Shown here: in pieces, positions 1,484-61,797 of the stretch | Numbering within the stretch: position 1 is the first letter of the stretch | Layout: each line of letters begins with the position of its first letter | From: Candidatus Melainabacteria bacterium RIFCSPHIGHO2_02_FULL_34_12 | GTDB lineage: Bacteria; Cyanobacteriota; Vampirovibrionia; 2-02-FULL-35-15 | Assembly: GCA_001784555.1 (NCBI GenBank) | Contig: MFRM01000017.1 | Coordinates: forward strand, 40,020-104,019 | DNA: 64,000 nt | Direction of reading: 5' to 3' | Notes under the pieces: model-generated | Database searches by the model: none | What the model was told of the DNA's origin: nothing | What the model saw: the letters and a program-made list of their open reading frames with translations, nothing else | Made by a program: the position numbers and the translations under genes

Positions 1484-4078
1484 CTAATCAAACAAACTTA
1501 ACTGCCCAGATTCAATCTGAGATTTTATAGAGTCTTTTTTTAGCGATGCTTTTGACTTGCCATACATGGTAGCCATAATGCTCTGAGCCCGCTCTAGAAG
1601 GGGCTTTGGCAAGCCTGCCATTTTAGCCACCTCTATTCCATAACTTCTATCAGCACCACCTGGAATTACTTTTCTTAAAAAAATCACATGACCTTCTTCT
1701 TCTTTTACTGTGACTTGATAATTACAGATTGACGAGTATAAATCTGCAAGACCATTTAGTTCATGAAAATGTGTTGCAAAAACAGTTCTGGGATTTTTAT
1801 TTTTTACCAGATACTCAGCCAATGCCCATGCAATGGCTACACCATCATAAGTACTGGTTCCTCTTCCTACTTCATCCAGTAAGATTAAACTTCTTTCAGT
1901 CATTCTGTTTATGATGGCACTGGTTTCAACCATCTCTACCATAAATGTAGACTGCCCTTGTGCAATATCATCCGTAGCACCTACCCGGGTAAATATCTGA
2001 TCCACTATTCCAATTTTTGCATAATCACATGGTACAAAAGATCCCGCCTGAGCAAGAATAATATTTAATGCAATTTGCCTCATATAAGTACTCTTACCAG
2101 CCATATTTGGTCCGGTTAAAATTATTAGTTGTTGTTTTACCTCAGATTTTCCTGACTCAAGAAACACATCATTTGAAACAAAGTTATTAAAACCGACTTT
2201 TTTTTCAATAACAGGATGCCTGGAGCCTTTTAACTCTATTAAAGATGAATCATCCAAAGCTGGTCTTTTATAGTTATTTATAATTGCAGTCTGCGCAAAT
2301 GAAAATAAAGCATCTAGAGTAGAAATATTAAATGCAATCTCTCTGATGATTGAGCTGTATTCTTTTACTTTTTCTCTAATCTGACAAAATATTTCATATT
2401 CAAGAGATTTAATTTTTTGTTCGGAATGAAGTGCTTTTTGTTCAAATTCTTTAAGCTCTTCAGTAATAAATCTGGATGAATTAACCATGGTTTGCCTGCA
2501 TATGTATTCTTTTGGCACCAACGATAGATTCCCCTTGCTGATTTCAATAAAATAACCAAATGACCTGTTAAATCCTACTTTTAAGTTCTTAATTCCTGTT
2601 TTTTGTCTTTCAATTGACTCAAATGACTTCAGCCAGCTATCCCCATTTTCAATAATTTCTTTTAGTTGTTTAATTTCAGGATTAAAATCAGGCTTAATTA
2701 GATTTCCTTCAGTAAGAATATTCGATGGGTTATCTATTATTGCTCTTTCAATAAGTTCAACTACAATATTTATTTCTTTTGGATAATTAATTATATTTTT
2801 AAATAACGGTAGAGTAAGATTCTTAATTACATTTGCAATGCTTGGGATTTCCATTAATGAGTTTTTTAATGCTGTAAGCTCTTTTGCATTTACACTAGAT
2901 GCAGACAGTCTTGAACTAATTCTTTCAAGATCAAATATTTTTTCAAGTGAATTTGATAAATCATAAAAGATAGACTTATTTTTTATAAGCTCATCCACGC
3001 AATTTAATCTCTGACTAATGGCATTAATGTCAAGCAATGGCTGCTCAAGCCAGTTTCTAAGCTTTCTTTTACCCATTTGGGTTTTTGTAAAATCAATTGC
3101 CCAAAGAAGCGAGCCTTCATATGATGAATCTTTAGCTCCTTCTGTTAATTCAAGATTTTTTCTGGTCGTTTTATCCAGACTAAGATAAGAACTTATTGAA
3201 TAAGGAATAATTTTTTCAAAAGACGGTCTTTCATTTACTTGCGTAGTATCAATATATGAAAGAATTGCTCCAGAAGAAACAAGACCAGCAAAAAACTCTT
3301 CATCAGTAAGGCTACTCAGTGAGGTTATTTTAAGTTCTTCTGCAATTCTTTTTTCAGCAAAATCCTTTTTAAAATATGTTGAATCAATACCTGTACAATA
3401 CCAGTTTTGTTTAATGTAATCATCTATTTCCAGAACCTTTTCTTTAACTATAAAGCCTTCTTGCTTTTTCATGTTTGAAGGAACAAGGATTTCTGAAGGA
3501 TTAATTCTGCCTAGCTCAGAGAGTAACTGCTCATAATTTATAACTGTAAAATAAAACTCTCCACAAGAAATATCAGCATATGCAAATCCATATAATTTAT
3601 TCTTATTATCTTTAAAGACTGAAGCAATGTAATTATTCTTGCTCTGTGGAAGCCAGTCGGTTTCAAGAACTGTACCTGGAGTTAATAATTTTGTCACCTC
3701 TCTTTTAACAATAGTTCTAGTAAGTGCAGGATCTTCCATTTGTTCACAGATGGCAACCTTAAATCCTTTATCCAGGAGTCTTGAGACATAATTAACAATG
3801 GCTTTAGCAGGTACGCCTGCCATTGGAATCCTACCCCCAGGATAACTTGATTCTGCTCTTCCGGTTAAAGTTAATTCCAACTCTTTTGAAATTATTTTTG
3901 CGTCTTCAAAAAATGTTTCATAAAAGTCACCCACCCTAAAAAAAAGTAATACATCTAAATCATATTTATATTTAATTTCGAGAAATTGCTTCATGAGTGG
4001 TGTAAACTGATCTACGTTACGAGGCCACTGCGTAATTTCTTCTGAACCTGATTGCTTTTCAATTAAGCTTATATTCAT
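1484..4078 (-). CDS. mutS: DNA mismatch repair protein MutS (start taken at internal ATG 4078; ORF track start 4090)
   Basis: DVLLFFRVGDFYETFFEDAK N-terminal motif, TGPNMAGKSTYMRQIALN Walker A, LILLDEVGRGTSTYDG, TVFATHFHEL. Confidence 0.97.
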   Translation of the reverse strand: MNISLIEKQSGSEEITQWPRNVDQFTPLMKQFLEIKYKYDLDVLLFFRVGDFYETFFEDAKIISKELELTLTGRAESSYPGGRIPMAGVPAKAIVNYVSRLLDKGFKVAICEQMEDPALTRTIVKREVTKLLTPGTVLETDWLPQSKNNYIASVFKDNKNKLYGFAYADISCGEFYFTVINYEQLLSELGRINPSEILVPSNMKKQEGFIVKEKVLEIDDYIKQNWYCTGIDSTYFKKDFAEKRIAEELKITSLSSLTDEEFFAGLVSSGAILSYIDTTQVNERPSFEKIIPYSISSYLSLDKTTRKNLELTEGAKDSSYEGSLLWAIDFTKTQMGKRKLRNWLEQPLLDINAISQRLNCVDELIKNKSIFYDLSNSLEKIFDLERISSRLSASSVNAKELTALKNSLMEIPSIANVIKNLTLPLFKNIINYPKEINIVVELIERAIIDNPSNILTEGNLIKPDFNPEIKQLKEIIENGDSWLKSFESIERQKTGIKNLKVGFNRSFGYFIEISKGNLSLVPKEYICRQTMVNSSRFITEELKEFEQKALHSEQKIKSLEYEIFCQIREKVKEYSSIIREIAFNISTLDALFSFAQTAIINNYKRPALDDSSLIELKGSRHPVIEKKVGFNNFVSNDVFLESGKSEVKQQLIILTGPNMAGKSTYMRQIALNIILAQAGSFVPCDYAKIGIVDQIFTRVGATDDIAQGQSTFMVEMVETSAIINRMTERSLILLDEVGRGTSTYDGVAIAWALAEYLVKNKNPRTVFATHFHELNGLADLYSSICNYQVTVKEEEGHVIFLRKVIPGGADRSYGIEVAKMAGLPKPLLERAQSIMATMYGKSKASLKKDSIKSQIESGQLSLFD

Positions 4079-5068: not shown

Positions 5069-5121
5069 CAATACTCTACTCAGCAACTTATTAATTTAAA
5101 CATTCATTTTGAATTTACAAT

Positions 5122-5282
5122 AAACGACTTCCCTAAAATCGGCTATCCATGTAGCAAGACTACATGGTATTACGCCGATTTTTGCCTGCAGCAACGGTTG
5201 TCGCATTATAAGGAAGTCGTTTGTTTTCCTTCGCTTATATCCCTGCAGCAAGACTGCAGGGTATTACGCTTCAGTCAAATAA
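5122..5282. repeat. R1 dispersed compound palindromic repeat, copy 1
   Basis: Outer arms AAACGACTTCC(5122-5132)/GGAAGTCGTTT(5212-5222); inner arms AAAATCGGC/GCCGATTTT; hairpins CCATGTAG-CAAGA-CTACATGG (5147-5167) and CCCTGCAG-CAAGA-CTGCAGGG (5241-5261), each followed by TATTACGC. Confidence 0.9.
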
Positions 5283-9910: not shown

Positions 9911-10865
9911 TTGCATCTAACTTTAATTTTTGAAACAGTTCCTTATCCTTACTAAAGGATGGATTATCAGTAGTTAAAAGTTTTTCGCCTGTAAATATAC
10001 TGTTAGCACCAGCCAGAAAACAAAGTGCCTGAAGTTCTTCACTCATTTCTAATCTACCAGCAGATAATCTGACTTTTGCTTTTGGTATAAATATTCTGGC
10101 AGTTGAAATAGAACGCACAATTTCAAAAGAATCAATAGGCTTCTGCCCTTCAAGTGGCGTACCCTTTACAGTAACAAGAGCATTTATGGGAACTGATTCA
10201 GGCTGCGGAGATAAATTAGCTAATGTTTTAATTAATTCAATTCTGTCTTTTCTATCTTCACCAAGACCAACAATTCCCCCGCAGCATACCTGAATCCCTG
10301 CATCTGAAACATTTTGAATGGTCTCTAATCGATCTTTATATGTCCTTGTAGTAATTATTTCTTTATAATATTCTTCCGAGGTATCAAGATTATGATTATA
10401 TGCAGTTAAGCCTGCATCCTTTAACCGTATAGCCTGCTCATAAGTTAACATTCCAAGAGTACAACAAACCTCCATCTTTAACGCAGCAACATTACTTACA
10501 ATATTTAAAATATCATCAAAATCTTTATTATCAGGTACATCTCTCCAGGCAGCACCCATACAAAATCTGGTAGCACCATTTTCCTTTGCATGTAATGCCT
10601 GTTTCAATACTTCATCCTTATGGAGAAGCTTATATTTTTCAATTTCTGTATTATATCTGGAACTTTGTGGACAATACTTACAATCTTCAGGACAATTACC
10701 GCTTTTAATATTACTAAGTGTACATAATTGTATTTTATTTAAAGGCTGATTTAGTCTATGAATTGAATGTGCTCTAAAAACAAGCTCCAGAAAAGGCAAA
10801 TCATAAATTTCAGCAACATCATCATAAGGATATAGATTCTTTAGGTTTTTAATTTTAACAGGCAA
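9906..10865 (-). CDS. bioB: biotin synthase (radical SAM)
   Basis: SNIKSGNCPEDCKYCPQSSRYNT radical SAM CxxxCxxC, YNHNLDTSEEYYKEIITTRTYKDRLET, GGIVGLGED. Confidence 0.97.
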   Translation of the reverse strand: MPVKIKNLKNLYPYDDVAEIYDLPFLELVFRAHSIHRLNQPLNKIQLCTLSNIKSGNCPEDCKYCPQSSRYNTEIEKYKLLHKDEVLKQALHAKENGATRFCMGAAWRDVPDNKDFDDILNIVSNVAALKMEVCCTLGMLTYEQAIRLKDAGLTAYNHNLDTSEEYYKEIITTRTYKDRLETIQNVSDAGIQVCCGGIVGLGEDRKDRIELIKTLANLSPQPESVPINALVTVKGTPLEGQKPIDSFEIVRSISTARIFIPKAKVRLSAGRLEMSEELQALCFLAGANSIFTGEKLLTTDNPSFSKDKELFQKLKLDAM

Positions 10866-11731
10866 TTTTTTTCTCCGGAAAATATAATTTTATCAGCTTT
10901 CATATTTATAGTTAAAAATGTAATATTTAAGACCTCTTCAAAAGATTGTTTTAAGTAATTCTCAGCACTGTGAAAGTCAATATTACAAGGTCCTAGCGTA
11001 ACGTCAACTAAATAATTAAGTGTCCCATTCACTGGGGGTGACGCCGGAAGGGAGGTGTCCATCCGAGGAGCTACTGCACCGCAGGATGGAGGGGAACCTA
11101 CAGGCGGCAGGACCCGCAGTGAATGGCGCAAGGTATGAAAACTTTGTTGACAATGTACTAGTTCACGGATTTTATTTAATTTTATTGATCCATGCTGCAA
11201 AATAGAATGTTTTTTTCTGCACTGAGCACTGCCAATAATTTTAGTATTATTTACAACAATATCAGCTGATGTCTTTGAATCAAAACAATTAAATTTACTA
11301 TCGTAGGATTTATCCGAATATCCAAAATCAGCAATTAATCCGTATTTATTTAAAAAAGAAATAAGGATACTTCCAATTTCAAAATATATTTTTCTGGCAC
11401 TTCCTGAATGATTAAAAACAAGAGAATATGTTATTTCAGACTCCGACGTATCATGATAGACAGCCTGACCACCTGTTATACGGTTAACCATATTTATATT
11501 ACAAAGATCGGATTTATAATTATGTTTTTTTATCTGACTCGCTCCCAGTGATAAAGTAGGCACTTCCCAGCCATATGTCCGCAGAACAGGTAATTTAATA
11601 TTGCCTTTATTCATTTCATCTAAGAGAAAAGCATCTAAAAGCATGTTTTGCAAGCCGGAAGAAATGCCTGTTTGCAAAAATATCCACTCTTTTGAAATGT
11701 TACTTAAATAATTTGAATCTTTTTTTATCAA
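10841..11731 (-). CDS. lipoate-protein ligase A-like protein, carrying an in-frame 34-codon palindromic insertion
   Basis: LRTYGWEVPTLSLGASQ, VNRITGGQAVYHDTSE (RRxTGGGAVYHD-like), KIIGSAQCRKKHSILQHGSI; GC-rich insert translated HSLRVLPPVGSPPSCGAVAPRMDTSLPASPPVNG. Confidence 0.85.
   Translation of the reverse strand: MIKKDSNYLSNISKEWIFLQTGISSGLQNMLLDAFLLDEMNKGNIKLPVLRTYGWEVPTLSLGASQIKKHNYKSDLCNINMVNRITGGQAVYHDTSESEITYSLVFNHSGSARKIYFEIGSILISFLNKYGLIADFGYSDKSYDSKFNCFDSKTSADIVVNNTKIIGSAQCRKKHSILQHGSIKLNKIRELVHCQQSFHTLRHSLRVLPPVGSPPSCGAVAPRMDTSLPASPPVNGTLNYLVDVTLGPCNIDFHSAENYLKQSFEEVLNITFLTINMKADKIIFSGEKNCLLKLKT
11025..11126. repeat. 102-bp GC-rich palindromic element inserted within a CDS
   Basis: Terminal inverted repeat CCATTCACTG(11025-11034)/CAGTGAATGG(11117-11126), extended by GGGT/ACCC after one mismatch; nested arms GTCCATCC/GGATGG; ~65% GC by hand count in an AT-rich gene. 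Confidence 0.85.
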
Positions 11732-14006: not shown

Positions 14007-14972
14007 GTGGATATAACAAAAGAAACAAAAGTAGGGGTTATTTGTGGTGGTATATCAAGCGAACGAGAAATCTCACTCAGGTCAGGATTAAATTCATTTA
14101 ATGCACTAAAGAAAATAGGCTATAAAAATACAGCTCTTATAGACATAAAATCTCCAGATGATATTTTTAATTTAAAAAATAAGATTGAAATTGCCTTTTT
14201 ACTTACACATGGAAAATACGGCGAAGATGGTGCTATTCAGGGAATCCTTGAATGGTTAAAGATTCCCTATACGGGTTCATCTGTGCTAGCTAGTGCTATT
14301 TCAATGGACAAATGGCTAACTAAACTAATAGCAAGAAGTAACAACATTTCTACTCCAAAAGGACAGGTAATCAATAAATCACATAAGCAAAACATTAGCC
14401 TGGAAATGGAAAGCATTTGGCATGATCTAACAAAAAAAGAACAAGCAGTATTTTTAAAACCCAGAGACGATGGATCTAGCGTAAACACCTTTAAAATTAA
14501 AACTCTGGAAGAATTAAAAAATAAAATAAACAGCATCGATTTAAATGCATCTGATTATATTGTTGAAGAGTTTATCCCCGGAAGAGAACTTACAGTAAGC
14601 TTACTTGAAGTTAAAAATCAGCTAAAAGTCCTTCCTGTTCTTGAATTAAAACCAAAAAATGAATTCTATGATTTTGAAGCAAAATATACCAAAGGACTTA
14701 CAGAATTTATTCTTCCTGCAAAATTAGACACTCAAGCTCTTAAAGAACTGGAAGATAAAGCCCTGGGAATTTTTACAAGTGTGGGATGTTCTTCTTTTGG
14801 AAGAGTTGATTTTATATTGGATCAAAATAATATTCCATATTTATTAGAGATAAATTCATTACCCGGCATGACAGATACCAGCGACCTCCCTGCACAAGCA
14901 AACCATGCTGGAATTAAATATGATGAGCTTGTTGAAATAATTCTTTTTTCTGCAAGGCTTCACAAACATTAA
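14007..14972 (+). CDS. ddl: D-alanine--D-alanine ligase (GTG start)
   Basis: VICGGISSEREISLRSG, LLTHGKYGEDGAIQG, YTGSSVLASAISMDKWLTK, LLEINSLPGMTDTSDLP. Confidence 0.97.
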   Translation: MDITKETKVGVICGGISSEREISLRSGLNSFNALKKIGYKNTALIDIKSPDDIFNLKNKIEIAFLLTHGKYGEDGAIQGILEWLKIPYTGSSVLASAISMDKWLTKLIARSNNISTPKGQVINKSHKQNISLEMESIWHDLTKKEQAVFLKPRDDGSSVNTFKIKTLEELKNKINSIDLNASDYIVEEFIPGRELTVSLLEVKNQLKVLPVLELKPKNEFYDFEAKYTKGLTEFILPAKLDTQALKELEDKALGIFTSVGCSSFGRVDFILDQNNIPYLLEINSLPGMTDTSDLPAQANHAGIKYDELVEIILFSARLHKH

Positions 14973-15134
14973 ATAAACCGACTTCCTTAAAATCGGCTAT
15001 CCCTGCTGCAAGCAACAGGGTATTACGCCGATTTTTGACTTCGTCACCAGTCGTCGGGATTTGGAAGTCGGTTTGATTTCGCTTGCTAAATCCCTCGTGG
15101 CAAGCCACGGGGTATTACGCTTCGCTCAAATAAG
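14972..15134. repeat. R1 dispersed compound palindromic repeat, copy 2
   Basis: AAACCGACTTCC(14975-14986)/GGAAGTCGGTTT(15063-15074); hairpins CCCTGCTG-CAAG-CAACAGGG (15001-15020) and CCCTCGTGG-CAAG-CCACGGGG (15092-15112), each followed by TATTACGC; ends TTCGCTCAAATAAG. Confidence 0.92.
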
Positions 15135-15138
15135 TTTC

Positions 15139-15248
15139 ACTGAAAAAGTCACTTTTTTATGCTCAGCATATGCCCTTTCGCTCCCTTACACCCTAGGAGG
15201 GATACGCTCGCTCCAGGGCATATGCTGAGCTTTTGTGACTTTTTCAGT
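15139..15248. repeat. 110-bp nested palindrome between ddl and dnaB
   Basis: ACTGAAAAAGTCAC(15139-15152)/GTGACTTTTTCAGT(15235-15248) and GCTCAGCATATGCCCT(15161-15176)/AGGGCATATGCTGAGC(15215-15230), both perfect. Confidence 0.92.
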
Positions 15249-15267
15249 AGTTTAATAACTCAGCTTT

Positions 15268-18529: not shown

Positions 18530-18690
18530 TTATTTGAGCGAAGCGTAATACCCAGTGGCTTGCCACTGAGATATAAGTGAGCGAAATCAAACCGACTTCC
18601 AAATCCGACGTCCGGTGACAAAGTTAAAAATCGGTGTAATATCCTACTGCTTGCGGCAGGAACGACCAATTTTAGAGAAGTCGGTTTATT
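18530..18690. repeat. R1 dispersed compound palindromic repeat, copy 3 (inverted relative to copies 1 and 2)
   Basis: TTATTTGAGCGAAGCGTAATACCC start; hairpins CAGTGG-CTTG-CCACTG (18553-18568) and CCTACTG-CTTG-CGGCAGG; AAACCGACTTC(18589-)/GAAGTCGGTTT(18677-18687). Confidence 0.9.
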
Positions 18691-55887: not shown

Positions 55888-55996
55888 CAGCTGGCTCTGC
55901 GGTGACGTTGCTCCTCGAGCCAGCTTTGCATAGTGCACTTGGATAAATCAATCTTAACGTTTTTTAGGTTTTGCCGAACAAGTCGGACAAAACCTT
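55888..55996. repeat. R2 dispersed palindromic repeat, copy A
   Basis: AGCTGGCTC(55889-55897)/GAGCCAGCT(55917-55925); AGGTTTTG-CCGA-ACAAG-TCGG-A-CAAAACCT (55966-55995). Confidence 0.85.
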
Positions 55997-59840: not shown

Positions 59841-59912
59841 AGCGGAAGACGGGGTTCGAACCCGCGACCTTCTCCTTGGCAAGGAGACATTCTACCACTG
59901 AACTACTTCCGC
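59841..59912 (-). tRNA. tRNA-Gly (anticodon GCC), no encoded CCA
   Basis: Reverse complement GCGGAAGTAGTTCAGTGGTAGAATGTCTCCTTGCCAAGGAGAAGGTCGCGGGTTCGAACCCCGTCTTCCGC forms a full cloverleaf; anticodon loop TTGCCAA. Confidence 0.97.
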
Positions 59913-59924
59913 GAAATTCTATAG

Positions 59925-60010
59925 CAGCTGGTTCTGCGGTGACATAGCTCCTCAAACCAGCTTTGCATAGACCGCTCGGTTTGCCAAATAAATTGGACAA
60001 ACCTCGCTTT
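59925..60010. repeat. R2 dispersed palindromic repeat, copy B
   Basis: CAGCTGGTTCTGCGGTGACATAGCTCCTCAAACCAGCTTTGCATAG matches copy A; GGTTTG-CCAA-ATAAA-TTGG-A-CAAACC (59978-60003). Confidence 0.85.
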
Positions 60011-60972: not shown

Positions 60973-61738
60973 CAGGCTGAAACATGTAATCCCTGGGCTG
61001 AGTTCTTGCATCCTGATATTCTGCCTGATCAAATTTTGCATCTGCATATTGTGCTGCAGCTCCAATAGCAATTGGGACATTAGGCAATAAAAGATTTGGA
61101 AATATTTGTCTTTGTTCTATAGTAGCAAAGTGTTGGAAATATCCAGGATATTGAAATGGCGTTAAGCCAGTAAATGTTGCAAGTTTTAATAAAAATCTCC
61201 CGAAAGTTCTTCCTCTTGGAGGTGGTGTATATCCTAATCCGCCATGTGCAACGCTTCCAGTAACAGCACCTGGATAATAAAGATTTTCAAATATTGGATT
61301 TGCTTCTGTGGGTTGAATTATACTAGGCGGTACATTTCCAGCATTAACACTGACTTCAGGACCCATAGTTGTATCAATGCCGCGAATTAATTGTCCTTCC
61401 GGAGAATATAAACCTACAAACCCACTTGGATGTTTAATTATTACTTGCGCAGGATTAACCTGAGAAGTTAAAGCTTTAAGATCAGATCTATAAGGAACAC
61501 TAAAAAAATCAAAACCAGCAAGTGATGAAACTTCCCTGTAAGACAGTTCTGATTCACTTAAGCCTACAAGCAATACTACTGGATTATTAAAAGATGGAAC
61601 CTTACTTGGATCAAGCTGAGTTTGTGCTTTAATCGCTAAAGATGTATCTTCTGAATATGAAGGCAATGAAAAATTAAGTGCCATAATACATAGAACTAAT
61701 CCAAGAATATTTTTGATTTTTATATCTTTTATTTTCAT
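60956..61738 (-). CDS. hypothetical exported protein, 260 aa
   Basis: Signal peptide NILGLVLCIMALNFSLPSYS. Confidence 0.65.
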   Translation of the reverse strand: MKIKDIKIKNILGLVLCIMALNFSLPSYSEDTSLAIKAQTQLDPSKVPSFNNPVVLLVGLSESELSYREVSSLAGFDFFSVPYRSDLKALTSQVNPAQVIIKHPSGFVGLYSPEGQLIRGIDTTMGPEVSVNAGNVPPSIIQPTEANPIFENLYYPGAVTGSVAHGGLGYTPPPRGRTFGRFLLKLATFTGLTPFQYPGYFQHFATIEQRQIFPNLLLPNVPIAIGAAAQYADAKFDQAEYQDARTQPRDYMFQPVIEGY

Positions 61739-61797
61739 TTTTACTCTTTTACATTTTTACTCTTTTACATTTTTACTCTTTTACATTTTTACTCTTA
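61738..61797. repeat. 16-bp (2x8) tandem repeat TTTTTACTCTTTTACA, ~3.5 copies, abutting a start codon
   Basis: Read directly between 61738 and 61797. Confidence 0.9.

Follow-up and report, generated by a model that had tools for sequence, protein, structure and literature searches.

A compound-hairpin repeat of Vampirovibrionia as a probable non-autonomous mobile element of the IS200/IS605 type

Results

The repeat described here is very probably a non-autonomous mobile element of about 160 nucleotides of the IS200/IS605 type, resembling IS608 and belonging to the kind represented by the PATEs. Its mobility and the involvement of a TnpA transposase are inferred from the signature of cleavage sites, guides and hairpins that the sequence carries at both ends.

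The window, i.e. the whole stretch of 64,000 nucleotides that was analysed, lies in a 2.1-Mb metagenome-assembled genome (G000); the other genomes are numbered from G001 onward, f1 denotes the host family and f4 a second family of the class. By its DnaB, whose nearest named relatives (Obscuribacter, Gastranaerophilales and Vampirovibrio) reach at most 57% identity, the host probably belongs to the class Vampirovibrionia (Melainabacteria). The window contains three ~160-bp compound-hairpin copies with stems, CAAG loops and GTATTAC tails, all as given in the preliminary description. Top strand designates the strand drawn there, which is the window + strand for copies 1 and 2 and the − strand for copy 3. 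The presumed active strand is its complement, and thus the + strand of the window for copy 3. The parts were labelled S1 (outer stem), S2 (inner stem), H1 (right-end hairpin), H2 (left-end hairpin) and H3 (small hairpin), as well as CL and CR (left and right cleavage sites) and GL and GR (left and right guides), all read on the active strand.

5119..5282, + strand: copy 1 (model R1, 144.8 bits, E 1.4e-27; fold z −6.9); element proper 5120-5278, retained target ATAA (TTAT on the active strand) 5279-5282
14972..15133, + strand: copy 2 (R1, 190.6 bits); element proper 14973-15129
14973..14976, − strand: copy 2, CR, TTAT (ATAA on +); TTAT at CR in 56/59 copies
14975..14986, no strand: copy 2, S1 5′ arm on +, AAACCGACTTCC (helix 1 covariation)
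14989..14997, no strand: copy 2, S2 5′ arm, AAAATCGGC, with the 3′ arm at 15027-15035 (helix 2)
15001..15020, − strand: copy 2, H1, right-end hairpin, active-strand loop CTTG (helix 3 covariation)
15021..15024, − strand: copy 2, GR, AATA (alignment columns)
15036..15046, no strand: copy 2, H3, TGAC-TTC-GTCA (helix 4 covaries)
15063..15074, no strand: copy 2, S1 3′ arm on +, GGAAGTCGGTTT (helix 1 covariation)
15092..15112, − strand: copy 2, H2, left-end hairpin, active-strand loop CTTG (CAAG at 15101-15104 on +); fold, helix 5 covariation, AT on the 3′ side in 24/24
15113..15116, − strand: copy 2, GL, AATA (TATT on +, within the GTATTAC tail; alignment columns)
15117..15129, − strand: copy 2, spacer of 13 nt from CL to the left guide (13 nt in 57/59 copies, 14 in 2)
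15130..15133, − strand: copy 2, CL, the retained target TTAT (ATAA on +); TTAT at CL in 57/59 aligned copies
18530..18690, − strand: copy 3, inverted (R1, 166.1 bits); target TTAT 18530-18533, element proper 18534-18689 with its terminal TTAT at 18686-18689

Copy 2 is one of four near-identical copies in G000 (the others being L019-L021), and the first two T's of its CR double as the base of S1. In copy 1 the loop reads CAAGA in both hairpins. Copy 1 does lack the C/G pair reported as missing from its outer stem; this is, however, a subfamily trait rather than an event of this copy, the pair being likewise missing from the G000 copies L025 and L032 and from copies of G004 and G008. The fixed GTATTAC tail is real as well and contains the complement of the guide tetranucleotide. 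Copies 1 and 3 supply stop codons of adjacent reading frames, and the sequence GGTATTACGC is over-represented.

Several further features of the window were observed. Directly after copy 2, positions 15137-15255 form a large imperfect palindrome (CACTGAAAAAGTCAC..GGGCATATGCTGAGC..GTGACTTTTTCAGTAG), possibly another mobile repeat. A GC-rich direct repeat of 55 bp occurs at 55888-55942 and 59925-59979 (84% identical), one copy of which adjoins the tRNA gene at 59841-59912. Moreover, a ligase-like ORF (10841-11731) contains a proline-rich insertion that keeps the frame (LPPVGSPPSCGAVAPRMDTSLPASPPVNG) and may be an in-frame repeat, and TTTTTACTCTTTTACA at 61732-61795 is a 16-bp tandem repeat.

Fold and covariation

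On the top strand, S1 encloses S2, which bears H1, together with H3, while H2 lies outside S1. Single-strand folding of the window copies was far beyond that of shuffled sequences (z −4.5 to −6.9, with none of 200 shuffles as good). The structure was set by hand and with a covariance model based on 18 copies, as RNAalifold on a MAFFT alignment gave a poor structure owing to the mis-registration of one subfamily. Among the 18 sequences, two-sided changes were found in 22 of 41 pairs (score 0.337, as compared to 0.136 in shuffles and at most 0.104 in slid controls). The analysis was extended to 58 distinct rows fitted to the model, from the building of which the second subfamily and the ACGAC subfamily had been left out. 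Here, 28/41 pairs showed two-sided changes, amounting to 352 two-sided cells versus 130.6 in shuffles and no more than 53 in slid controls. These changes affected nine of the twelve pairs of helix 1 (S1; 95% of cells paired), 5/9 pairs of helix 2 (S2) and 7/8 pairs of helix 3 (H1), and helix 4 (H3) alternates between GAC/GTC, GCC/GGC and GCT/AGC. With more copies aligned the covariation is thus strong, and the proposal that selection acts on the folded form is borne out.

In all copies, a GTCGG-like segment located past H3 and ahead of the S1 3′ arm repeats part of that arm. It seems to change with the arm among subfamilies, so that S1 may be able to pair in an alternative way.

The non-Watson-Crick cells are unevenly distributed: on the top strand A.C occurs 74 times and G.T 33 times, which places the wobble pairs on the complementary strand. 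Counted by pair, the same mismatches amount to 18 versus 8, which alone is not significant. In addition, 29 of 33 copies folded more stably as the complementary strand, whether RNA or DNA parameters were applied; constant loop differences may contribute to this. Mismatch bias and fold stability agree with the guide evidence below in favouring the complementary strand as the probable active one. Consequently, the strand drawn in the preliminary description is probably the inactive one.

Cleavage sites and guides at both ends

TTAT stands at the start and at the end of nearly every full copy. On the active strand the element follows the plan 5′-TTAT | 13 nt - AANA - H2 (CTTG loop) - AT ... AANA - H1 - AT - ~24 nt - TTAT | 3′, where guides and sites were read from alignment columns. 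Its ends, AATAAACCGAC and CTCAAATAA, are direct rather than inverted and there are no inverted terminal repeats; the palindromes H1 and H2, near both ends, share their orientation. The tetranucleotide directly 5′ of each hairpin foot is AATA, AAAA, AACA or AAGA. Across 24 divergent copies this guide has A at positions 1, 2 and 4 (with a single G), and its third position holds T, A or C. The sequence 3′ of H2 is AT in 24/24 of these copies, and that 3′ of H1 is ATA in 19/24.

In IS608, the fourth base of the guide pairs with the fourth base of the site. The published contacts between guide and site are A16:T-3 and A17:T-4, with base triples completed by A42/T43, which lie immediately 3′ of the hairpin (PMC5934647). 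TTAT together with AANA obeys this rule, and position 3 is free, as the rule predicts. Site and guide fit the rule at the left end of 57 and at the right end of 55 of the 59 copies, so that two left and four right ends depart from it. The spacing between CL and GL is equally constant (13 nt in 57/59 copies, 12-14 in f4). In five f4 copies CR reads TCAT and GR reads GATA, while the left ends of the same copies stay TTAT/AATA. The pair TCAT/GATA corresponds to the two-sided compensatory change predicted by the IS608 rule, though it may represent one inherited change and not repeated events.

Copy number, distribution and signs of mobility

BLAST with copy 2 retrieved from G000 the query itself and 17 matches, comprising 16 copies and one weak match on the opposite strand. 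Relatives were present in seven of the ten other f1 genomes and in none of 49 other genomes of the class. The covariance model, run with an E cut-off of 0.1, gave 36 matches in G000, of which two are weak and fall on known copies in the opposite orientation; about 34 are genuine, so that further copies do exist genome-wide. The model also found 24 matches in G001 and one to seven in each of six further f1 genomes; the f1 genomes G005, G006 and G007 gave none. A second G000 subfamily comprises 14 copies, identical at 156-164 of 164 positions, which have the fold in common with the first subfamily at a sequence likeness of only about 68%. When 382 genomes of the class were searched with a stricter filter, five genomes of f4 also matched, and their copies reproduce the layout in full, the stems being unrelated. 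In 386 genomes of the phylum, searched with the stricter filter, the matches were confined to f1 and f4, and neither viral contigs (searched with two exact patterns) nor plasmids gave a match.

The element is intergenic and of high copy number, none of 40 copies lying inside an ORF. Neighbouring genes are codirectional in 14, divergent in 12 and convergent in 6 cases, roughly in proportion to the share of intergenic bases; the preference for convergent genes hinted at by the three window copies is not upheld genome-wide. Lagging-strand targeting is not supported, as the copies show no orientation bias relative to GC skew, which is itself weak and follows the gene strand.

Near-identical copies occur in groups at unrelated sites, with identities of 97.5-99.4% in subfamily 1 of G000, 96-98% in G001, 97-100% in G042 and 95.7-98.8% among five copies of G004. 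Judged from their sequences, these groups point to a recent multiplication of an element that looks recently active. At the L048 site of G009, the element is absent from the congeners G006 and G010. In G010 the predicted donor sequence can be aligned through the junction with no gap, showing a single ATAA-like target but diverged flanks; in G006 a short deletion covers the junction.

Terminal-only forms, in which H1 and H2 are fused, were found at L249, L217:3258-3328 and L216:5095-5173, and shorter ones, reduced to S1 and H2, at L034, L042, L052, L226, L228, L229 and L231. Two G001 copies with unrelated flanks (L222:601-753 and L223:601-755) are truncated at exactly one shared point (TCGCTATCCC) within the S2 arm, the point at which a tandem duplication in L219 begins; a second processing site is possible. 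Separately, two degenerate copies in G004 (L250:1852-1991 and 3740-3879) lie 1.9 kb apart with identical flanks and reflect the tandem duplication of a segment around ORFs that are repetitive and of low complexity.

Relation to REP elements and other explanations

The preliminary description had named REP/BIME elements mobilised by RAYTs as the nearest known concept. Its view of a mobile, structured DNA repeat with a selected fold in the orbit of Y1 transposases holds, but the assignment to REP/BIME and RAYT is unsupported, since guides, TTAT ends, direct hairpins and terminal-only forms match PATEs. We consider it improbable that a REP/BIME/REPIN-like element is mobilised here by resident RAYTs (TnpA-REP). 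RAYT-like ORFs are present in G000 and their chemistry would be closely similar; moreover, the element is intergenic, palindromic and multi-copy and, like REP/BIME/REPIN sequences (PMC2817692, PMC3116915), combines palindromes having a 5′ tag with Y1 enzymes as the presumed movers. However, a search for Y1/RAYT genes and their flanks placed the element near no RAYT locus of f1, and the model matched none of the 28 Y1/RAYT loci of this family. Instead, these loci bear palindromes of their own (GTAG/GTAGGGGC), and most of those scanned contain a GC-rich palindrome in the gene, nearly always of the GTAG type. The f1 RAYTs have invariant W-Q-(8)-R residues, and the W-Q-R residues have been linked to the reading of GTAG (PMC6006769). 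The tags of the element are AATA, AAAA, AACA and AAGA and not GT(A/G)G, its hairpins are in direct and not inverted order, and it is a discrete 160-nt unit with two cleavage sites. Finally, G006 and G007 have RAYTs without the element, while G002, G004 and G008 have the element without an intact RAYT. In G004 there is only a 30-residue remnant, yet five near-identical copies are present.

With respect to the RAYT ORFs themselves, those at L016:1470-1500, L175:1712-1741, L172:1713-1742 and others have GTAG-type REP palindromes within or beside the coding sequence, which sit between the two halves of the Y1 domain.

Still less probable is a structured RNA that is transcribed as a regulator, terminator or ribozyme and selected for its RNA fold. 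The strong covariation, the folding as RNA, the strand preference and the position of some copies next to gene ends would all suit it. Nonetheless, the copies have no fixed gene or orientation context and vary in presence between congeners. They bear a signature of cleavage sites and guides at fixed spacing, and a tRNA was the sole Rfam match in the window. A DDE-type MITE with specific duplication of an ATAA target, which the short, multi-copy, non-coding nature of the repeat and ATAA at both ends might suggest, can be dismissed almost entirely, given direct ends without terminal inverted repeats, a target that is nearly always ATAA (TTAT) and not variable, and subterminal same-strand hairpins with matching guides.

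Search for a helper transposase

In the element-bearing f1 genomes no intact IS200-type tnpA was found, bearing in mind that MAG assemblies may lack such copies, and no tnpB of a TnpB-bearing IS605 partner was found in f1. IS200-type TnpAs of f1 were detected in G006 and G007; their hairpins differ, and both genomes are without the element. The covariance-model search yielded no longer, full-length autonomous relative with the same ends. As multi-copy transposons are often lost from metagenome assemblies, the absence of a helper is weak evidence.

Several candidates were inspected. The genes between the paired matches on contig 19 of G004 and those near the clustered matches of G001 are not transposases by inspection. 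Y1 ORFs of 308-318 aa in f4 (L144-L146 and L161) have inverted ends reading GGGTCGTATCC / GGATACGACCC; they represent a different group of Y1 elements and were rejected as partner, their GGGTCGTATCC ends being unlike those of the element. In G020, a genome of another family of the class (f6), the right-end hairpin of an IS200-like element (CAATAC-CCCGTAG-CTTG-CTGCGGGG-TTATT) resembles the ends of the element, while its left end has no clear fit.

Discussion

The data favour a single-strand transposon substrate of the IS200/IS605 type. Accordingly modelled on IS608, a Y1 (HUH) TnpA supplied in trans would bind H1 and H2 on single-stranded DNA, and each guide would pair with its own TTAT, guide base 1 with site base 2, guide base 2 with site base 1 and guide base 4 with site base 4, leaving guide base 3 free. 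TnpA would then cut 3′ of both TTATs, and the excised ssDNA circle would reinsert 3′ of another TTAT without target duplication.

In line with the ends of IS608 and the IS200/IS605 family (PMC5934647), the element has subterminal same-strand hairpins, a 4-nt guide 5′ of the hairpin foot, 4-nt sites, AT just 3′ of the hairpin and, as it appears, insertion 3′ of a fixed tetranucleotide. It differs from IS608 in having neither tnpA nor tnpB, in its long structured right end, in its sites and guides (TTAT with AANA, as opposed to TTAC/AAAG and TCAA/GAAT) and in the spacing between CL and GL (13 nt versus 15 nt).

The closest likeness is to the PATEs of Haloquadratum walsbyi, which have no inverted repeats, carry paired near-terminal palindromes and give rise to terminal-only forms by recombination of these palindromes (PMC3119063). 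As in PATEs, there are no inverted terminal repeats, the near-terminal palindromes are similar to each other, coding capacity is lacking, an evident target duplication also seems to be absent, groups of high identity occur, the element appears to have moved though helpers seem missing, and the terminal-only deletion forms would stem from recombination between the two palindromes. In contrast to PATEs, the element is bacterial (Vampirovibrionia), its right-end hairpin is nested in two more covarying stems accompanied by a third hairpin, and the same genomes show no IS605-type relative with matching ends. The kind of element is therefore already known; what is new is the family in its lineage, the clasp-like compound right end and the missing helper.

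S1, S2 and H3 constitute extra covarying structure around the right end, beyond that of typical IS200/IS605 ends. This clasp is kept in two bacterial families, the element sequences being otherwise only about 60% alike. S1 would hold both ends of the element together, and since it pairs the first two bases of CR on the active strand, it would compete with the right guide for them. It is conceivable, albeit doubtful, that the clasp has a function within the transposition machinery, namely as a pre-formed synapse of the whole ssDNA element that masks the two CR bases until TnpA or strand exchange opens it. The element would then represent a self-regulating, self-synapsing substrate of the IS200/IS605 type that had not been described before.

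Taken together, the copies provide a natural data set from several families in which the guide/site code of IS608 can be read from sequence variation alone, including three fixed guide positions, a free one and, at just one of the ends, a matched change. Likewise, a repeat that resembles a structured RNA or a REP sequence can be recognised as the substrate of a single-strand transposon, including its strand. In this poorly known, largely uncultured class, the element suggests a Y1 transposase directed at TTAT, a specificity not recognised so far.
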